Positions 31,129-43,549 of a DNA stretch of 64,000 nt are shown one piece after another (within the stretch, counting starts at the first letter, position 1; the number at the start of each line of letters is the position of its first letter). The stretch is from an uncultured Planctomycetota bacterium (lineage in GTDB: Bacteria; Planctomycetota; Phycisphaerae; UBA1845; Fen-1342): positions 1-64,000 of the forward strand of contig CAADGM010000016.1 in the NCBI GenBank assembly GCA_900696535.1, in the 5' to 3' direction. Under the pieces are notes generated by a model. The model was not told where the DNA came from, ran no database searches, and worked only from the letters and a program-made list of their open reading frames with translations. A program made the translations under genes and the position numbers.

Positions 31129-31208
31129 GAACCGATCCGAGAACCTGTGGAGCACCCCCGATCAGCGGGTGCTCCACGTCGTGCTCCTCCGGGTTCCGGG
31201 ATCGGTTC
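31129..31208. terminator. Nested long hairpin between convergent DUF167 and anchor-L genes
   Basis: Three nested stems: GAACCGATCC (31129-31138) with GGATCGGTTC (31199-31208); GAACC (31141-31145) with GGTTC (31192-31196); and GTGGAGCACCC (31147-31157) with GGGTGCTCCAC (31167-31177), a perfect 11-bp stem with a 9-nt loop. It ends at the stop codon of the minus-strand gene. It probably acts as a two-way terminator and shares its inner stem with the 229-346 repeat. No T-run follows. Confidence 0.6.
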
Positions 31209-33334
31209 TAGAAGCCCTCTTGAAACATGGCGAAGTCGCCCATGTCCACGTCACCGTCGATGTCGAAGTCGTAGCCTGACGGGTCCGGACAAGTCGGCCA
31301 ATTGTCGGGACCTGCGAGGCAGTCGAGCATCCCGCCGAAGCCCGTTTCGGTCGTGATACTCAACGAGAAGGCAATGCACTCGACGTCCACCGGCCGGCAG
31401 TCAATCATCAGGTAGTAGACCCCTGGAGCCAGGGACACACTTGGGATCGTGGCGACAGTCCCTTCGGTAGTCGCCATGGCGATGCAGTTTTGCCCGGGGG
31501 GACAGGTGCTTCCGAGCGCGACCCCGATTCGGCGGTCGTTCGGAGTGGCGCCGCTGACCGTGATCGCGACGGTCTGCGGCACGGCGACGTGCAACTCGTA
31601 GATGATGTCGTCGCCGTTGTCGTAGTTGCCCAGGCAGGTGTTCGAGTAGTCCTCGTGCTTGTCACAGGTCGTATTGACATTGGCGTACGGCAGCCCGTTG
31701 ACAACGAGCGGGTACTCGCAGTCGCGGCCTACGCCCTGTGGCGGCGTGGTGCAGGGCGGGATGAGCTGGCTGCAGGCGAGGCCCATCGACCAGACGTCCC
31801 CCGGCGCCTGGCAGTCGGCCTGCGGCACGTTTTCGTCGCAGAGCTGCGCGGTCGTGTGGCAGCATGCGCCGGTCGGCGCGCCGCTTGTGATCGTCAACGT
31901 GAAGTCCATGCAGTTCAGTGCCGACGGCCAGCGATCGATCATCAGGTAATACGTTCCGGCCGGCAGCGCGAGATCAGTGATCGTCGCGACGGTGCCGCTG
32001 GTCGTCGCGTAGGCGATGCATGGCTCACCCGGAGGGCACGTGTCACCCACGGCCACGCCGATCCAGTTGTCTGCCGGCGTGGCGCCGGCGACAGTGATGT
32101 TGATGCTCAGCGGGCTGGAGAGTTGCAGCGCGTAGATAATGTCGTCGCCGTTGTCGAACGTGCCCAGGCACGTGCTCGAGTAGTCGTTGTCCATTGTGCA
32201 CGTGGAATTCACATCCACGAACGGCAGCGCCCCGATCGCGATCGCGTGCTGGCAATCCTCTCCTCCCTGGTGCTGAACCTGCACGCACGGCGGATTGAGC
32301 TGGTCGCAGAACAGGCCCACGCTCCAGACGTCGCCGGGTTCCTGACACGCGGACTGGGGCATGTAGTCGTCACACGTCAGCGTGCCCGTGTGGCAGCAGG
32401 CGCCGACCGGCGTGCCGCACGAGAAGCTCTGCCCCTGGATGAACACGTTGGAATCCAGGACGCGGTCACCGGCGTCGGCAACCGCGAGCTTGATGTGATT
32501 CGTGCCGGCCTGGAGCGTGCCCGTCGCGGTCAGCACGACGGTGAAACCGTCCATTTCGATGTCACGCACGCCGGCGCACGGGAAGGTCCCCGGGGGAATG
32601 TCGCTGCAATCGTTGTTCACGTAGAGGTTGCAGAAGCTGCCGTCCGGCGGGTTGTAGGGGTTGCTGCAGTTGACGTTGTTGATGCTGACCGCCATCCCGC
32701 CGCTGCCCGGAACCAGCGCGATGTTCTGGCCGTTCAGGAAGAAGCCGAAGACGTCGTTGTAAGGCGACGCGACCCACTCGTTGTACTCCTCCGAGGTGAG
32801 GACGTATCGGAAGACGACCGTCTGCGGGCCGTCGCAGACGAAGTCGAACTCGAGGATACAGGCGTCAAACGTCTCGTAGCCGGGGATCAGCCCGTCGAGA
32901 TCCGCGTCGCCCGCCAGGCCGTTGTCCGCAGTGACGTCATCCATCGAGTTCGGGCCCGGAACAAAGCCGATGTTCCCGCTGCTGAGGATGATCCCGCTTT
33001 CGAACCCCACGATGCCCGTGCCGCCCGAGAACGTCCCGGCCGCGGTCAGCGCACCGCTGAACTGAATCTGGGAGGCCGCCACACCCGGGCCAAGCAGGGC
33101 GTTCACCACGTCCGCCGGCGTCAGGCCGGAGGCCAGGTCGTGCGTGGTCAGTGCCCGCGAGGCCGGCTGAGCCGGCGGCTTCCAGTTACTGCCGCCGGGC
33201 CCCACCTGCGGGCGGCGCGGCGCGTCCGCTGCGTGCGCGGACGCCACGAGCAGCGCGCAGAGCAGCAACCCGGTGCCAATGCCGACACGATGCCTTTGCC
33301 ACTCCTCGGACGTTGAGTCAGGTTTCTCGCACAT
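31208..33334 (-). CDS. Secreted choice-of-anchor-L protein with duplicated Cys-rich modules
   Basis: 708 residues. Signal peptide (about 1-36). Choice-of-anchor-L domain (about 60-300; GIVGFESGIILSSGNI, FRYVLTSEEYNEWV, NDVFGFFLNGQNIALVPG, NNVNCSNPYNPPDGS). Then come two homologous modules of about 170 residues. Each opens with GACCH and a Cys-rich segment with a PGDVWS motif, and continues with a beta-rich domain (DNGDDIIY, IGVA.G.TCPPG, VYYLMID). The C-terminus has one calcium loop like a half dockerin (DFDIDGDVDMGDF). Probably a cell-surface or matrix protein; the anchoring mechanism is unknown. Start codon support is modest (GAGGGC before ATG). Confidence 0.85.
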   Translation of the reverse strand: MCEKPDSTSEEWQRHRVGIGTGLLLCALLVASAHAADAPRRPQVGPGGSNWKPPAQPASRALTTHDLASGLTPADVVNALLGPGVAASQIQFSGALTAAGTFSGGTGIVGFESGIILSSGNIGFVPGPNSMDDVTADNGLAGDADLDGLIPGYETFDACILEFDFVCDGPQTVVFRYVLTSEEYNEWVASPYNDVFGFFLNGQNIALVPGSGGMAVSINNVNCSNPYNPPDGSFCNLYVNNDCSDIPPGTFPCAGVRDIEMDGFTVVLTATGTLQAGTNHIKLAVADAGDRVLDSNVFIQGQSFSCGTPVGACCHTGTLTCDDYMPQSACQEPGDVWSVGLFCDQLNPPCVQVQHQGGEDCQHAIAIGALPFVDVNSTCTMDNDYSSTCLGTFDNGDDIIYALQLSSPLSINITVAGATPADNWIGVAVGDTCPPGEPCIAYATTSGTVATITDLALPAGTYYLMIDRWPSALNCMDFTLTITSGAPTGACCHTTAQLCDENVPQADCQAPGDVWSMGLACSQLIPPCTTPPQGVGRDCEYPLVVNGLPYANVNTTCDKHEDYSNTCLGNYDNGDDIIYELHVAVPQTVAITVSGATPNDRRIGVALGSTCPPGQNCIAMATTEGTVATIPSVSLAPGVYYLMIDCRPVDVECIAFSLSITTETGFGGMLDCLAGPDNWPTCPDPSGYDFDIDGDVDMGDFAMFQEGF

Positions 33335-35982: not shown

Positions 35983-36402
35983 ATGGAGGCGCGCTACGAG
36001 CTGTTCGATCACACCGCCGACATCGGCGCTCGCGTCGTCGCCCCGACGCTCGACGCGCTGGCACGGACCGCGGTCGAGGCCCTGTACGGCGTCATCGGGT
36101 CGCTGGCCGTGGCCGGGTCGGGAGAATCCGCCCGTTTCGCGTACCAGGGCGACGATGCGGCGGTGATGATCCGGGACTGGCTCGCGGACCTGCTGGTCGA
36201 GTTCGAGTCGCACGGACGATGCCTGACTGATGTGGTGGTCGAGTCGTTCGACGGCGCGCACCTGCGCGCGGCAGGCGTCTTCCGGGCGATCGATGCGTCA
36301 CGGAGCGAGTTCCATCGCGAGGTCAAGGCGGTGACATACCACGAATTGGCGCTGCGAACCGTGGACGGTGGCTACGAGTTGGTGTTCATCGTGGACATCT
36401 GA
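35983..36402 (+). CDS. Archease
   Basis: 139 residues, the normal archease length. The start YELFDHTADIGARVVAPTLDALARTAVEAL carries the conserved DHTAD acidic motif, followed by DWLADLLVEFES, REVKAVTYHEL and a C-terminal VFIVDI (the last Asp is part of the metal site in this family). Archease activates the RNA ligase RtcB by promoting its guanylylation. No rtcB gene lies in the window. It has a TATAGT-N7-ATG promoter arrangement and no Shine-Dalgarno. Confidence 0.92.
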   Translation: MEARYELFDHTADIGARVVAPTLDALARTAVEALYGVIGSLAVAGSGESARFAYQGDDAAVMIRDWLADLLVEFESHGRCLTDVVVESFDGAHLRAAGVFRAIDASRSEFHREVKAVTYHELALRTVDGGYELVFIVDI

Positions 36403-36711
36403 TGCGTGCGCCGCTCGCAGCTTGCGACCTGCCAGACCCGTGGCTATCGTCGCTTCCGAGGGACCGGCCGAAAACCCGGATCTACAGGAGCCAGAGAAAC
36501 GAGGTATGGGCTGTGTCGAACGATTCGACACTCCCCCGCTCCCTCCCCGGGGAGGGGGGTGGGCCAAGAGATAGCCACGGAAACCATGTGGGCTTTCGAT
36601 TCGTATCCGGCCGGTGACTGCGGGCCACTGCGGCGTTCGCGCTCTCCACGGGTTGACCGCGCGGGGGCTCGTTCTGCCTCGTGCAGCCCGTCGGTGCGGC
36701 TCCATTGTGAG
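36403..36711. other. Gap upstream of the metal-handling cluster
   Basis: 309 nt with no supported gene. A perfect palindrome CCCTCCCCGGGGAGGG lies at 36541-36556. No clear metal-regulator operator could be recognised by eye, though the position would suit one. Confidence 0.35.
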
Positions 36712-38097
36712 ATGGTTGTAGGTCGCCCCAAGCCAGCACCGCACCGGTTCAAGTCCGCTGCCACAGCGCTTCGGCGGGCTCTGACGACTGCCGTGCTCGG
36801 CTTGACCTTGCTCGTCGCACCCGCTGGGGCCGTGGCACACCCAGGCATCAGCGTCAGTTTGAAGATCGCGATCAATGACCAGGCCATTGAATACACCGCC
36901 CTCCTGTCCGCGGACCTTGTGCATCAGATCGAGTGGGACTCGGGACAGAAGATCCCGCGACCGCGGATCGAGGCCGGCCGGACCTCTTACGAACGCGACG
37001 AGCAGGCCGAGACCGCGCGCACCATGCTGGTCGCGCTGCTGCCCGAGACGATCGTGACTATCGACGGCGTCGCCGTGCGCCCGATCATCGAGGAAGCCGC
37101 GTTCATACCCGCAATGTCGGCACCGGTCGGCGGAGAGCCGGTCGACTTCTGGCCGCCCGACGCGCGCTTCGTCCTGCGCTACCCCACCACGGGGCGACCC
37201 CGCCAGGTCGCGCTCGTCTGGCACCTGTTCCCGCTCGACCCGATGCGGACCACATTCGGGATGCCGCCGGAGATCGAGATCGTGGCCGAGCTGGACGCGT
37301 ACGACGAGAACCGGCTCATCATCTTCAGCAAGGACGAGCCCGAGGTGATCTGGCACGCTCCGACTGCCCCGCCCCAGCAGCGCGTCTGGCCCGTGCTCAC
37401 CGACGCGCCCCCGCGCGCGACGGTCACGTTGCCGCTGGCCACCGTGGGACTCGGCCTGATCGCCGCCGCCGCGGGGTCGTTCGCCGCTTTGCGGTGGCGG
37501 CGGCCGCGCGTCGCTCGACCGGCGCTGGTCGCTGGCGTCGGGGCGGCGGTGCTGGCGGCGGTCGCCTGGCCGGCAGCGCGGTCCCCGTTCGAGCTGCCGT
37601 GGCCGGGCGAGTTGCGTGCCCCGTCGGATGCCGAGGTGCGGGACATCTTCGAGCGGCTCCAGAAGAATGTGTACCGGGCCTTCGAGTACAAGAAGGAGAG
37701 CGACATCTACGACGTGCTGGCCCAGAGCGTGGATGGACCGCTGCTCGACAGCGTGTATAACGAGGTCTATCAGAGCCTCGTGCTTCGCGACCAGGGCGGG
37801 GCCGTCGCGCGCGTCAAGGACGTGAAAATCGTCAGCACGGACATTCTCTCCACCGGGCGCGAGGCCGATCGCGGCGCCGTCGCGGTCCAGCTCGCCAGCA
37901 CGTGGCAGGTCGACGGGTCCGTCTTCCACTGGGGGCACACGCACAACCGCACCAACCAGTACAGCGCCCTCTACACGCTGGCGCAGCGCGGCGACCGCTG
38001 GAAGATCACCGGCGTCGAGGTGCTGTCGCACGAGCGCATCATCAAGGAAGGCGACGACCCCCTGCCCCTGCTCAGCGTCCCGCCGGGCTCGTCATGA
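36712..38097 (+). CDS. Secreted/membrane protein heading a putative metal-transport operon
   Basis: 461 residues. Signal-type helix (about 20-42, ending AGAVAHPG) so the mature chain starts near His. A periplasmic beta-rich domain follows (about 45-235), then two membrane helices (about 240-262 and 270-290). The last 160 residues (APSDAEVRDIFERLQKNVYRAFEYKKESDIYDVL ... WQVDGSVFHWGHTHNRTNQYSALYTL, landmarks) resemble a small cone-shaped SnoaL/Tim44-like fold and contain HWGHTHNRTN, rich in His. Its stop overlaps the ABC ATPase start (ATGA), so it is part of that system. I do not recognise the family. The start has no clear RBS. Confidence 0.65.
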   Translation: MVVGRPKPAPHRFKSAATALRRALTTAVLGLTLLVAPAGAVAHPGISVSLKIAINDQAIEYTALLSADLVHQIEWDSGQKIPRPRIEAGRTSYERDEQAETARTMLVALLPETIVTIDGVAVRPIIEEAAFIPAMSAPVGGEPVDFWPPDARFVLRYPTTGRPRQVALVWHLFPLDPMRTTFGMPPEIEIVAELDAYDENRLIIFSKDEPEVIWHAPTAPPQQRVWPVLTDAPPRATVTLPLATVGLGLIAAAAGSFAALRWRRPRVARPALVAGVGAAVLAAVAWPAARSPFELPWPGELRAPSDAEVRDIFERLQKNVYRAFEYKKESDIYDVLAQSVDGPLLDSVYNEVYQSLVLRDQGGAVARVKDVKIVSTDILSTGREADRGAVAVQLASTWQVDGSVFHWGHTHNRTNQYSALYTLAQRGDRWKITGVEVLSHERIIKEGDDPLPLLSVPPGSS

Positions 38098-38762
38098 TCG
38101 ACGTTCGCGACCTGCGCTTTCGTTACGGTGACGGCGGCTTCGAGCTGGTCGTGCCGCGCCTGGTCATCGCTGCCGGGCGCAAGGTCGCATTGATCGGGCC
38201 CAGTGGCTCGGGCAAGACCACGCTCGTCCATCTCGTGGCCGGCATCCGCAAGCCGCTGGGCGGGCGCATCGTCGCCGACGGCTTCGACGTGGTGGCCGCA
38301 GGCGAGCGGCAGCGCCGGCAGTTTCGCGCCGCGCGCCTGGGGCTCGTGTTCCAGGAGTTCGAACTGCTCGAATACCTCACGGTCCGCGAGAACATCCTGC
38401 TGCCGCACTACCTGAGCGGGGCGGCGTGGCGACTCCCGGCGGTGCGGCGCGAGGCGGACGCGCTCGCGGCCAGTGTCGGCCTGGGCGACAAGGTCGGCCG
38501 GCACCCGACCACGCTCTCGCAGGGTGAGCGGCAGCGCGTGGCCATCGCCCGCGCGCTCGTCACCAGCCCGCGACTGATCCTGGCCGACGAGCCGACGGGC
38601 AACCTCGACCCGGACGCAACGGCAGCCGTCCTGCGGCTGCTCCTCGACGAGGTGGAGCGGCGCGGGGCGACACTGGTGATGGTGACGCACAACCACGGGC
38701 TACTGGGCGCGTTCGACCAGGTCATCGCCATGGAGGACGTTGTGCGGGGGGGCTCCGCGTGA
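38094..38762 (+). CDS. ABC transporter ATP-binding protein, LolD/MacB type, in metal cluster
   Basis: 222 residues. Walker A GPSGSGKT (35-42), Q-loop FQEFELLEYL, signature LSQGERQRVAIARAL (Gln replaces the first Gly) and Walker B with D-loop LILADEPTGNLDP. It belongs to the LolD/MacB group, not to the ZnuC/MntB group normally paired with metal-binding proteins. Start and stop overlap both neighbours by 4 nt, so the three genes are translationally coupled. Confidence 0.88.
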   Translation: MIDVRDLRFRYGDGGFELVVPRLVIAAGRKVALIGPSGSGKTTLVHLVAGIRKPLGGRIVADGFDVVAAGERQRRQFRAARLGLVFQEFELLEYLTVRENILLPHYLSGAAWRLPAVRREADALAASVGLGDKVGRHPTTLSQGERQRVAIARALVTSPRLILADEPTGNLDPDATAAVLRLLLDEVERRGATLVMVTHNHGLLGAFDQVIAMEDVVRGGSA

Positions 38763-39943
38763 GGTCCGTGCTCCTGCTGGCGTGGCGCTACGTTGCGTAC
38801 AACCGCGTCAAGACGGCCATTCTCACGGTGTGCCTGACCCTCACGATCCTGCTGCCGCTGGCGACGCAGGAGATCATCTCGCACTACGACGCCGATCTGC
38901 GGGCGCGGGCGGCAGCGACACCGCTGGTCGTCGGCGCCAAGGGCAACCGCTTCGACCTGGCGCTCAAGGCGCTGTACTTCACGCCCGCGCCGCTCGACCC
39001 GGTGTACATGAGCGAGTACGAGTGGCTGCTCGATCCGCCCATCGAGGGCCTGCGGCTGGAGCCGATCCCGCTCGAGCTCAGCTTCACCGCCCGCGGACAC
39101 CCCGTCGTCGGCACGGGCCCGGAGTACTTCGACTTCCGCGGCCTGCGCGTCGAGCGCGGCCGGTTGTTTCAGCGCATCGGGCAGTGCGTCCTGGGCGCTC
39201 GCGTCGCGGCGGAACTGAAACTCGGCCCCGGCGACAGCCTGTTCTCCGACCAGCGCCGCCTGTACGACTTCGCCGGCACGTACCCGCTCAAGATGCAGGT
39301 CGTCGGCGTCCTCGCCCACAGCGACGGCCCCGACGACCGCGCGGTCTTCGTCGACTACAAGACCTGCTGGATCATGGCGGGCCTCTCGCACGGGCACGGC
39401 GACGTCACCCGGGCCGACCCGAACAGCGGGCTCATCCTGGCCCGCTCCCAGGAAGAAGTCCGCACCGTCCCCGGAATCGTCGAGTACAACGAGGTCACCG
39501 ACGAGAACTTCGCCTCCTTCCACACCCACGCCGCGCCCGACCGGCTTCCCCTGTCGGCGATCATCGTCGTGCCCGCGGATTCCAAGAGCGCGACCATCCT
39601 CCGAGGCCGCTACGCGACACCAGACCTGCCCACGCAGCTCCTCGTCGCCGCCGAGGTCGTCGACGAGCTCATGCGGCGCGTGTTCGAAATCCAGCGCTTC
39701 TTCAATGCGGCGTTCGTGCTCGTCGGGCTCTCGACGGTCCTGTTCGTGACGCTCATCATCATGCTTTCGCAGCGGCTGCGCCGGCGGGAGATGGAGACGC
39801 TGCACAAGCTCGGCGCGAGCCGGGCCATGACCGTGTGGCTCCGGGTGGCCGAGTTCGCGATCATCTTCGCGCTGGCTCACGGGGCCGCGGCCCTGTTGGC
39901 CTGGGCGGCCGTGCTGGCCGCGCCGCGGATCGTCGGGCTATGA
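38759..39943 (+). CDS. FtsX/MacB-type ABC permease in metal cluster
   Basis: 394 residues from GTG 38759, which overlaps the preceding TGA. One N-terminal helix (about 14-36) is followed by a periplasmic domain of about 230 residues and a C-terminal FtsX block with three helices (FFNAAFVLVGLSTVLFVTLIIML, coupling helix REMETLHKLGASRAMT, then EFAIIFALAHGAAALLAW). The total length matches MacB/DevC-like permeases of four helices. It would form a dimer driven by the preceding ATPase. Translocation of metal through such a permease would be unusual, so substrate is an open question. Confidence 0.85.
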   Translation: MRSVLLLAWRYVAYNRVKTAILTVCLTLTILLPLATQEIISHYDADLRARAAATPLVVGAKGNRFDLALKALYFTPAPLDPVYMSEYEWLLDPPIEGLRLEPIPLELSFTARGHPVVGTGPEYFDFRGLRVERGRLFQRIGQCVLGARVAAELKLGPGDSLFSDQRRLYDFAGTYPLKMQVVGVLAHSDGPDDRAVFVDYKTCWIMAGLSHGHGDVTRADPNSGLILARSQEEVRTVPGIVEYNEVTDENFASFHTHAAPDRLPLSAIIVVPADSKSATILRGRYATPDLPTQLLVAAEVVDELMRRVFEIQRFFNAAFVLVGLSTVLFVTLIIMLSQRLRRREMETLHKLGASRAMTVWLRVAEFAIIFALAHGAAALLAWAAVLAAPRIVGL

Positions 39944-40041
39944 TCCGGGCGGGCTGCTCATAGACGGACTGGATGGTACGTTTCGCGCTCACGGCGTATT
40001 CCCTTTGGCCGCGGACGGGTAATGGACTTGGAGGACACGTG

Positions 40042-40965
40042 ATGAGACCGACCACGATTCTGGCGAGCGTGCTGGCAACAGTCATGGCCGGCGCCGCGTT
40101 TGCCCAGCCCGGCAAGTCCGGCGAGAAGCCGGTCGTCTACACGACCTTCTATCCGACAACCTACTTCACGCAGCGCATCGCCGGCGACCTGGCCGATGTC
40201 GTGAACCCCTGTCCGCCGGACGCTGACCCGGCCTTCTGGGTGCCGGACGAGGCCACGCTCGCGGCCTACCAGAAGGCCGACCTGGTCGTGATAAACGGCG
40301 CCGACTTCGAGAAGTGGGTCGCCAAGGCGTCGCTGCCGCGCCCGCGGATGGTGGAGACGACGCGTCCGCTGCGCGGCGAGCTCATCACGATCAAGGACGC
40401 GATCCGGCACAGTCACGGACCGGGCGGCGAGCACACGCACGAGGGAACCGACGGCCACACGTGGCTCGATCCGCTCAATGCCAAGGTCCAGGCCGAGCAG
40501 ATCCGCGACGCGCGCGCGCGGCTGCGCCCGGAGCACAAGGCCGCGTTCGACAAGGGCTTCGCCGAGCTGGCCGCCGACCTCGACAAGCTCGATACGCGAC
40601 TCAAGGCCCTGTCGCCGAAGCTGACCGACGTTCAACTCCTGGCCAATCACCCGGCGTGGAACTACCCCGCCCGGCGCTACGGGTGGAAGGTGCAGAGCTA
40701 CGGCGTGGATCCGGAAGAGATGCCCGATGAGAAGACGCTCGAGCAGATGCGCGCGTTCGTGGCCAAGCACCCGGCCAAGCTGATGCTGTGGGAAGAGGAG
40801 CCCAAGCCTGAAGTCGCGGAGAAGCTCAAGGCCGCGCTGGGCGTCGCGCACGTGGTCTTCGAGCCCGGCGAGAGTCTCTCCGAGGAGCAGGCCAGGGCCG
40901 GCAAGAACTACCTGACCATCATGAACGCCAACATCGATCGGCTGGAAGCCGCGCTGGGCAAGTAG
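40042..40965 (+). CDS. ZnuA-like metal ABC substrate-binding protein
   Basis: 307 residues with a signal peptide (about 1-21, AGAAFAQ) and a Shine-Dalgarno GGAGG. The cluster A-I fold is visible: VVYTTFYPTTYFTQRIAG, ADLVVINGADFEKWV, DGHTWLDPLNAKVQAEQIRDA, LANHPAWNYPARRYGW, LMLWEEEPKPEVAEKL. His-rich loop HSHGPGGEHTHEGTDGH. The first metal ligand, normally the His of a DPHxY/F motif, is replaced: DADPAFWVP. Later ligands (DGHTW, ANHPAW) are kept. It should bind zinc or another divalent metal in the periplasm, maybe with altered geometry. Confidence 0.85.
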   Translation: MRPTTILASVLATVMAGAAFAQPGKSGEKPVVYTTFYPTTYFTQRIAGDLADVVNPCPPDADPAFWVPDEATLAAYQKADLVVINGADFEKWVAKASLPRPRMVETTRPLRGELITIKDAIRHSHGPGGEHTHEGTDGHTWLDPLNAKVQAEQIRDARARLRPEHKAAFDKGFAELAADLDKLDTRLKALSPKLTDVQLLANHPAWNYPARRYGWKVQSYGVDPEEMPDEKTLEQMRAFVAKHPAKLMLWEEEPKPEVAEKLKAALGVAHVVFEPGESLSEEQARAGKNYLTIMNANIDRLEAALGK

Positions 40966-41032
40966 CTCGCGCGCGAGGTGCCGTGGGAAACCGGCCCAAC
41001 CGCGAGACATCGGCCGGCCGAGCAGGGATTCC

Positions 41033-41734
41033 GTGACGCCGAGTGAACTGACTTTCCTGGCGACCTCGTTCGGGCTCGGGGCGCTGCACGCGCTCGAGCC
41101 GGGGCACGGGAAGTCCGTCGTGGCGGCCTACATGCTGGGCAACCGCGGGCGGTGGCACCACGCGGTCCTGCTCGGCGGCACGGTGGCTTTCACGCATACC
41201 GCCGGCATCCTGGTGCTGGGGCTGATCGCCTGGTACGCGGCGGTCAAGCTCGACATGGCCCGCATCCAAAGCGGCGTGAGCGTGGCGGCCGGCGTACTCA
41301 TTCTCGCGGTCGGCGCGTGGATGCTCTGGCGCGGGCTGAGCGCGCGGGGCGGCCACTCGGGTCACGCGCACCCGCATGACCATCACGAGCACCATCACCC
41401 CCCCGCCGCCGGCCACGCCGCCTCCTGGTGGAGCGTCACCGCGATCGGGTTGTCGGCCGGCATCCTGCCCTGCCCGGCGGCGCTGGCGCCGCTGCTATAC
41501 GCCTTCGGCGTGCGCAAGGGCGCCCAGGGCGTCCTGGCGACGGTCCTGTTCTCGCTGGGCCTGGCGCTGATGCTGACGCTGGTCGCGCTGCTCGTGCTGC
41601 GCGCCCGAGGCTGGGCCGACGAACGGTTGGAGCGCGCGCGTTGGATGAGGCATCTGCCGATCGTCAGCGCCGTCATCGTCTGCGTGCTCGGAGTTGTCGT
41701 GTTGGTACGCGGGATCCAGACGACTGCGACGTGA
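41033..41734 (+). CDS. NicO/RcnA-type nickel-cobalt transporter
   Basis: 233 residues, GTG start with GCAGGG upstream. Six or so helices; the first carries the signature GALHALEPGHGKSVVAAYMLG and the fourth LSAGILPCPAALAPLLYAFG, both typical of the NicO family. A His-rich cytoplasmic loop lies between the two halves (HSGHAHPHDHHEHHHPP). NicO proteins move Ni or Co, usually outward. It follows the binding-protein gene by 67 nt and likely shares its transcript, completing a metal-handling set. Confidence 0.9.
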   Translation: MTPSELTFLATSFGLGALHALEPGHGKSVVAAYMLGNRGRWHHAVLLGGTVAFTHTAGILVLGLIAWYAAVKLDMARIQSGVSVAAGVLILAVGAWMLWRGLSARGGHSGHAHPHDHHEHHHPPAAGHAASWWSVTAIGLSAGILPCPAALAPLLYAFGVRKGAQGVLATVLFSLGLALMLTLVALLVLRARGWADERLERARWMRHLPIVSAVIVCVLGVVVLVRGIQTTAT

Positions 41735-43237: not shown

Positions 43238-43549
43238 ATGGCCGAACGGATGGTTCATTGCGCGAAGCTGGGCCGCGAGCTGCCGGCCATCGACGAGAGC
43301 ACGCCCGAGGGTCGCTCGGCGCTCAAGCTGGCCCTGCTGATCGGCGGACCAGAGCTCAAGAAGCGGGTGCATGAGCAGATCTCGATCGACGCCTGGCGAA
43401 TGTGGAAAGACCACATGCTGATGGTCGTCAACGAGTTCCGCCTGGATAACACCAACCCGGAGTCGAACCGAATCCTGGGCGAGCAGATGGAGGCGTTCCT
43501 CTTCGGCCCCAGCCAGCACGTGCCCGGCTACGTGCCACCGACTGCGTAA
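43238..43549 (+). CDS. yggX: YggX-like probable Fe(2+)-trafficking protein
   Basis: 103 residues. The start MVHCAKLGRELPAID with its single conserved Cys, and KKRVHEQISIDAWRMWKDHMLMVVNEFRLDNTNPESNRIL...EAFLFG (landmarks), match the YggX family along the full length. YggX helps protect iron-sulfur enzymes from oxidative damage. ATG 43238 has GGAGAGG upstream. It ends 20 nt from the facing thpR gene. Confidence 0.92.
   Translation: MAERMVHCAKLGRELPAIDESTPEGRSALKLALLIGGPELKKRVHEQISIDAWRMWKDHMLMVVNEFRLDNTNPESNRILGEQMEAFLFGPSQHVPGYVPPTA

Follow-up and report, generated by a model that had tools for sequence, protein, structure and literature searches.

In a stretch of 64,000 nucleotides from an uncultured Planctomycetota bacterium (hereafter the window), we identified an operon of four genes, encoding an exported protein designated P1, an ATPase, a permease and a ZnuA-like protein, that is conserved among bacteria of at least 14 phyla. 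The operon is apparently undescribed so far, as no earlier description was found in the open-access literature. The four genes (positions 36712-40965) probably specify a Zrg-like system that handles transition metals in the periplasm and is powered by a MacB-type (type VII) ABC transporter, and zinc uptake is its most likely role, as proposed for Vibrio zrgABC.

Gene layout in the window

All five genes that the initial annotation had assigned to this locus are present as open reading frames on the forward strand (Table 1). The overlaps of 4 nt between the P1 and ATPase genes (ATGA) and between the ATPase and permease genes (GTGA) are exact in the sequence, as is the spacing of 98 nt between the permease and ZnuA-like genes; the NicO gene starts 67 nt past the ZnuA-like stop codon. 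P1 had been described as a protein without a recognised family, and neither Pfam nor NCBIfam gave a match. Zur- or NikR-like sites, for which the intergenic region upstream of P1 had been singled out, do not stand out there: Zur-, Fur- and NikR-like boxes 5' of P1 in the window and in 57 relatives were not above those in shuffled sequences. A sigma-70 promoter scan of the same intergenic region gave no match. Near the operon, the window also carries a YggX-type Fe(2+) trafficking gene (43250-43546; Pfam 1.3e-18) and an archease gene (35983-36399; Pfam 1.9e-27). The reverse strand encodes, at 31208-33334, an exported protein of 708 aa in which GACCHT...C blocks recur and the C-terminus is dockerin-like; this protein has no Pfam match.

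Table 1. Features of the locus, with positions in the window.
Feature	Position	Strand	Remarks
Intergenic region 5' of operon	36403..36711	+	contains 8-bp inverted repeat GTGTCGAACGATTCGACAC
P1, exported/membrane protein, 461 aa	36712..38097	+	ATG start; no Pfam/NCBIfam family
LolD/FtsE/MacB-type ATPase, 222 aa	38094..38762	+	Pfam ABC_tran 2.3e-31
FtsX/MacB-type permease, 394 aa	38759..39943	+	GTG start; Pfam MacB_PCD 8.9e-9, weak FtsX 2e-5
ZnuA-like (TroA-fold) protein, 307 aa	40042..40965	+	Pfam ZnuA (PF01297) 2.7e-53
NicO/RcnA-type transporter, 233 aa, His-rich loop	41033..41734	+	GTG start; Pfam NicO (PF03824) 5.7e-13, above cut-off

Conservation of the four-gene unit

Relatives of P1 were found in 87 of 392 Planctomycetota genomes. 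At 43 of the 60 Planctomycetota P1 loci, the ATPase, permease and ZnuA-like genes follow P1 in the same order and on the same strand, and the four-gene set is therefore not a chance arrangement. At four of these loci P1 was accompanied by just the ATPase and permease genes, and at ten it stood alone, contig ends explaining some of the latter. At one further locus (L045), P1 is directly followed by the ZnuA-like gene, the ABC genes being absent between and after them in the available stretch, which suggests that P1 and the ZnuA-like protein can function as a pair. Within the window's own family, P1 occurred in five of 26 relatives, three of which have the full four-gene order. An M28 zinc-aminopeptidase-type gene lies just 5' of P1 at 27 of the 60 loci (e.g. 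L040, L064, L053 and L067), head to head with P1 in 21 cases and co-directional in 6 (e.g. L049); PDZ was seen in one protein read. The M28 gene, which may be a client or a co-regulated gene, is also found upstream at some loci having P1 alone.

The unit also occurs on plasmids of Methylomagnum ishizawai and Paracoccus liaowanqingii, with permeases 41-43% identical to that of the window. The M. ishizawai operon adjoins a TonB receptor and NikR, and that of P. liaowanqingii is flanked by DUF4198 genes. On the Methylomagnum plasmid (L116:862-12523), the operon has sialidase-type and CopC genes on one side and the TonB receptor with NikR on the other, a region that is possibly a multi-metal island.

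A scan of 84,980 species genomes with a permease profile yielded 304 relatives, the best 80 of which represent at least 14 named phyla, including Planctomycetota, Verrucomicrobiota, Pseudomonadota, Acidobacteriota, Myxococcota, Cyanobacteriota, Nitrospinota and Gemmatimonadota. P1 alone as the query gave no match in a contig scan; the permease alignment succeeded. Neighbourhoods were compared for 82 permease loci, namely these best 80 and the two plasmids. The permease gene adjoins the ATPase gene at 80 of the 82 loci, the ZnuA-like gene at 70 and a P1/NTF2 gene at 55. The linkage of the ZnuA-like gene to MacB-type ABC genes thus holds across phyla. A constant association of P1 with the ABC genes was not borne out: P1 can occur alone, and at 27 of the 82 permease loci an NTF2 match was absent nearby, contig ends explaining some of these. 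An obligate role of P1 was ruled out, as some permease loci with upstream sequence present are devoid of an NTF2 gene. The flanking genes in the cross-phylum sample are diverse, and no further recurrent partner genes were found among them.

The NicO gene had initially been counted as a member of the set, but it is a neighbour in the window genome only and lies outside the conserved unit. No NicO match was found near the 60 P1 loci, in same-family relatives or near the 82 permease loci by single-sequence tblastn, which a very distant NicO could escape. It is absent from a relative of the window's own family with ample 3' sequence, and the contigs of two relatives stop right past the ZnuA-like gene. 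With no match beside about 140 related loci, NicO was rejected as a conserved component. It may be co-transcribed with the operon in the window genome.

Predicted properties of the proteins

The AlphaFold2 model of P1 (pLDDT 85.5) comprises a signal/TM helix (residues 15-35), a periplasmic alpha/beta domain resembling ZrgA and anglerases (about 44-240), a TM hairpin (242-285) and a second, NTF2-like domain (about 291-443); the hairpin would place both domains in the periplasm. Foldseek searches with the whole model returned two kinds of matches, the one consisting of Cu-bound Ang-1 of HupE/UreJ-2 (9gce), ZrgA of V. cholerae (8ezw, E 1.9e-4; also 8f1b) and PA4063 (7bgo, E 8.8e-4), and the other of NTF2-like ARC6/PARC6/Tim44 domains. 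Judging by the sequence in which strands and helices follow one another, we read the ZrgA/Ang-1 matches as N-terminal and the NTF2 matches as C-terminal. The likeness of the predicted P1 fold to ZrgA is structural only, with about 10% identity and a TM-score of about 0.5-0.6 on the shorter chain. The ZrgA family PF10986 matched neither P1 nor any other product of the window genome at E <= 0.01, and the P1 sequence profile had no match among solved structures. Planctomycete PF10986 matches were rejected; they are short or partial, none coincides with a P1 gene, and the best belongs to a His-rich protein whose gene has no ABC genes beside it.

The NTF2-like domain bears the motif HWGHTHNRTN (HxxHxH: H406, H409 and H411), and these three His residues are invariant in 57 P1 homologues, orphans included. 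Near the N-terminus, the junction of AVA and HPG suggests that the mature protein would begin with His, as in anglerases (PMC12537917). A His near this point is common, not universal, among P1 homologues. Members of a Gimesia-like genus (L054, L057, L062 and L063) have a longer and different P1 N-terminus with an EVRHE motif, similar to the EVRHE of the Methylomagnum protein.

The ATPase has intact Walker A (GPSGSGKT), signature (LSQGE) and Walker B (LILADEP) motifs in its sequence, and the NCBIfam FtsE/LolD/DevA subfamilies match it below cut-off. The permease has four predicted TM helices and a large periplasmic domain containing D192-D193, H211-G-H213 and H255-x-H257. Its AlphaFold2 model (pLDDT 92.5) gave MacB (5gko) and LolCDE as the top Foldseek matches, and the heme exporter HrtBA was also matched. 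All six residues are invariant or nearly so in 44 permease homologues. Among the best 80 of the 304 cross-phylum relatives, HxH was present in 80 and DD in 77; HGH was part of the scan pattern, so that its conservation in this sample is built in, which does not apply to HxH and DD. The DD/HGH/HxH residues are mostly absent from more distant permeases of Rhizobium and Deinococcus. A common gene layout is seen for the more distant permeases of Rhizobium, Deinococcus radiodurans and Shinella (L118, L119 and L120), namely an alkaline phosphatase, a small exported protein with a CPFC motif in both cases that were read, the ATPase and the permease.

The ZnuA-like protein was described as a ZnuA-type binding protein, and this stands for the fold (PF01297) but not for an ordinary ZnuA. 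In the window protein, zinc ligand 1 is replaced (A64) and H139, H203 and E251 are retained, together with a loop H123-S-H125-G-PGGE-H131-T-H133. When 40 homologues were aligned to YcdH, the best PDB sequence match, the ligand-1 His was lost in all 40, ligands 2 and 3 were kept in 31 and 32, respectively, loop His 123 and 125 in every homologue, and loop His 131 and 133 in 36. Among 111 ZnuA-like proteins linked to the operon, none has the ligand-1 His and all have HxHG; two text matches to PHxW among them were discarded as ligand 1, as they lie outside the ligand site. Outside Planctomycetota, ligand 2 is likewise replaced in many of the linked proteins (AFTTW). In a phylogenetic tree, the 111 linked proteins fall on one side of a branch (SH-aLRT 100) and 13 canonical ZnuAs, a small canonical sample, on the other.

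One of these 13 is the window genome's own canonical ZnuA, which keeps PHAY and is encoded beside an ATPase and an ABC-3 permease (PF00950) on contig 40. ABC-3 permeases were detected in 327 of the 392 genomes; no ABC-3 match was obtained for seven genomes that carry the operon in full (G132, G135, G158, G186, G196, G236 and G351; completeness 76-93%), so that the ZnuA-like protein there has no ZnuB to serve, a conclusion that incompleteness weakens slightly. Given these seven genomes and the separate, intact ZnuABC of the window genome, ZnuB need not be the partner of the ZnuA-like protein.

Comparison with known systems

The operon shares with zrgABCDE of Vibrio cholerae and PA4063-PA4066 of Pseudomonas aeruginosa a separate LolD-type ATPase and a MacB-like permease that has four TM helices and a large periplasmic domain (PMC9820375, PMC11481552), as well as an adjacent gene for an exported metal-binding-type protein of ZrgA-like fold. 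The analogy with Vibrio Zrg drawn in the initial annotation is strengthened by the predicted structural likeness of the N-terminal domain of P1 to ZrgA and PA4063. In contrast to Zrg, P1 fails the Pfam ZrgA model and adds a TM hairpin and an NTF2-like domain, the operon adds a ZnuA-fold protein, and a Zur-type site does not stand out upstream against the shuffled background. No ZrgD/ZrgE-type gene was recognised among the five products, and there is no small exported ORF between the genes. Because the ZrgA family model fails, ZrgE is unrecognised, and NTF2 and ZnuA-fold parts are added, the operon is regarded as working like Zrg and not as a proven Zrg member.

With ZnuABC and other cluster A-I importers, the operon has in common a protein of ZnuA fold (PF01297) that bears a His loop. 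However, its permease is MacB/FtsX-like and not of the ABC-3 type, which is encoded elsewhere (contig 40), and the linked ZnuA-like proteins all miss the ligand-1 His and many the ligand-2/3 His, the HxHG of the first loop being invariant instead. The permease and ATPase folds and the gene layout are those of the type VII ABC systems MacB, LolCDE and HrtBA, whereas the conserved periplasmic DD/HGH/HxH residues and the metal-binding-type partners are particular to the operon. No MacA adaptor, TolC or LolA-type partner is present among the operon products, nor is there a recurrent adaptor in the flanks (HlyD in 2 of 99 downstream proteins). HupE/UreJ-2 proteins with the Ang-1 'anglerase' metal-capture domain (PMC12537917) resemble P1 in its modelled N-terminal domain (9gce) and likely mature N-terminal His, but P1 does not contain the HupE transporter domain; it runs on into an NTF2-like domain and is encoded beside an ABC transporter.

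Proposed function and alternative explanations

What the computations show directly is the conservation of the unit across phyla, the folds predicted for its proteins and the conserved His/Asp motifs in each of the three components other than the ATPase. We consider it very likely that the system handles transition metals, and zinc has a somewhat better than even chance of being the main one; zrgA is needed for growth of a V. cholerae znuA mutant at low zinc (PMC9820375). For inward transport, as proposed for Vibrio zrgABC, the chances appear evenly balanced. In the proposed mechanism, P1 would capture the metal by means of its ZrgA/anglerase-like domain, probably with an N-terminal His after cleavage, and the HxxHxH of its NTF2-like domain. 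The ZnuA-like protein, having lost ligand 1 from the standard site, would carry or relay the metal via its HxHGxxGxHxH loop, the periplasmic DD/HGH/HxH residues of the permease would accept it, and ATP hydrolysis by the LolD-type ATPase would drive the transfer. More tentatively, the operon could represent a widespread, uncharacterised class in which a type VII ABC transporter relays a transition metal along periplasmic His motifs, with a ZnuA-fold partner devoid of the classical zinc pocket. The relay might then, equally tentatively, consist of the P1 HxxHxH, the HxHG loop of the ZnuA-like protein and the permease DD/HGH/HxH. Nickel or cobalt may also be handled, in view of the NikR and DUF4198 genes beside the plasmid-borne operons, DUF4198 being a family for which nickel binding was shown (PMC12537917), and of the local NicO. 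Such nickel-linked genes next to the operon speak against zinc being the sole metal.

Counting against uptake, MacB-type ABC transporters are mostly exporters or mechanotransmission machines. It is unlikely, yet worth weighing, that the operon encodes a MacB-type exporter of a metal or metal chelate, whose periplasmic binders receive or hand off metal on its way out or inform the exporter; MacB and LolCDE have the folds nearest to that of the permease, HrtBA is also among the matches, and NicO/RcnA, often an efflux family, adjoins the operon in the window genome. Such an exporter would correspond to PA4064-4065 in Pseudomonas, where export of cobalt-pyochelin was proposed for PA4063-4066 (PMC11481552). 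However, no recurrent MacA-like adaptor or TolC gene stands alongside, the partner proteins are related to binding proteins that serve uptake, and the NicO linkage is not conserved. Slightly less probable again is periplasmic metallation, in which ATP-driven strokes of the permease shift metal among the ZnuA-like protein, P1 and exported metalloenzymes and no membrane is crossed. Mechanotransmission in the MacB/LolCDE family needs no passage of substrate across the membrane, as established for LolCDE, and both the largely head-to-head M28 genes of the Planctomycetota loci and the alkaline phosphatase genes beside the more distant permeases would suit metallation. Across phyla, however, M28 is rare (3 of 96 upstream proteins), and it is absent at the window locus.

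That two unrelated functions merely adjoin each other, a LolCDE/MacB-like envelope ABC transporter with P1 and a ZnuA serving the genome's ZnuBC, is highly improbable and already largely refuted. The 98 nt that separate the permease and ZnuA-like genes, together with the frequency of ABC-3 permeases in the genomes, would fit such an arrangement, but the linkage is kept across at least 14 phyla, the linked ZnuAs form their own branch, and the ZnuBC of the window genome already has an intact ZnuA of its own. Moreover, an ABC-3 permease was not detected in seven of the genomes that carry the operon, and at L045 P1 lies directly beside the ZnuA-like gene without ABC genes.

Implications

Our results indicate that proteins labelled 'zinc ABC transporter substrate-binding protein' beside FtsX permeases are not ordinary ZnuAs. 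The Zrg system is a recent puzzle, since its MacB-like ABC transporter is of the exporter type, whereas genetic data point to zinc import in Vibrio and to cobalt-chelate export in Pseudomonas. Metal-linked MacB-type ABC transporters extend far past Vibrio and Pseudomonas, to at least 14 phyla, and the operon described here adds a ZnuA-fold partner with a partly stripped classical site. The conserved His/Asp positions provide targets for mutation by which direction and mechanism could be settled. If the more tentative reading as a metal relay is correct, a type VII ABC transporter would serve metal uptake or the loading of exported metalloenzymes.
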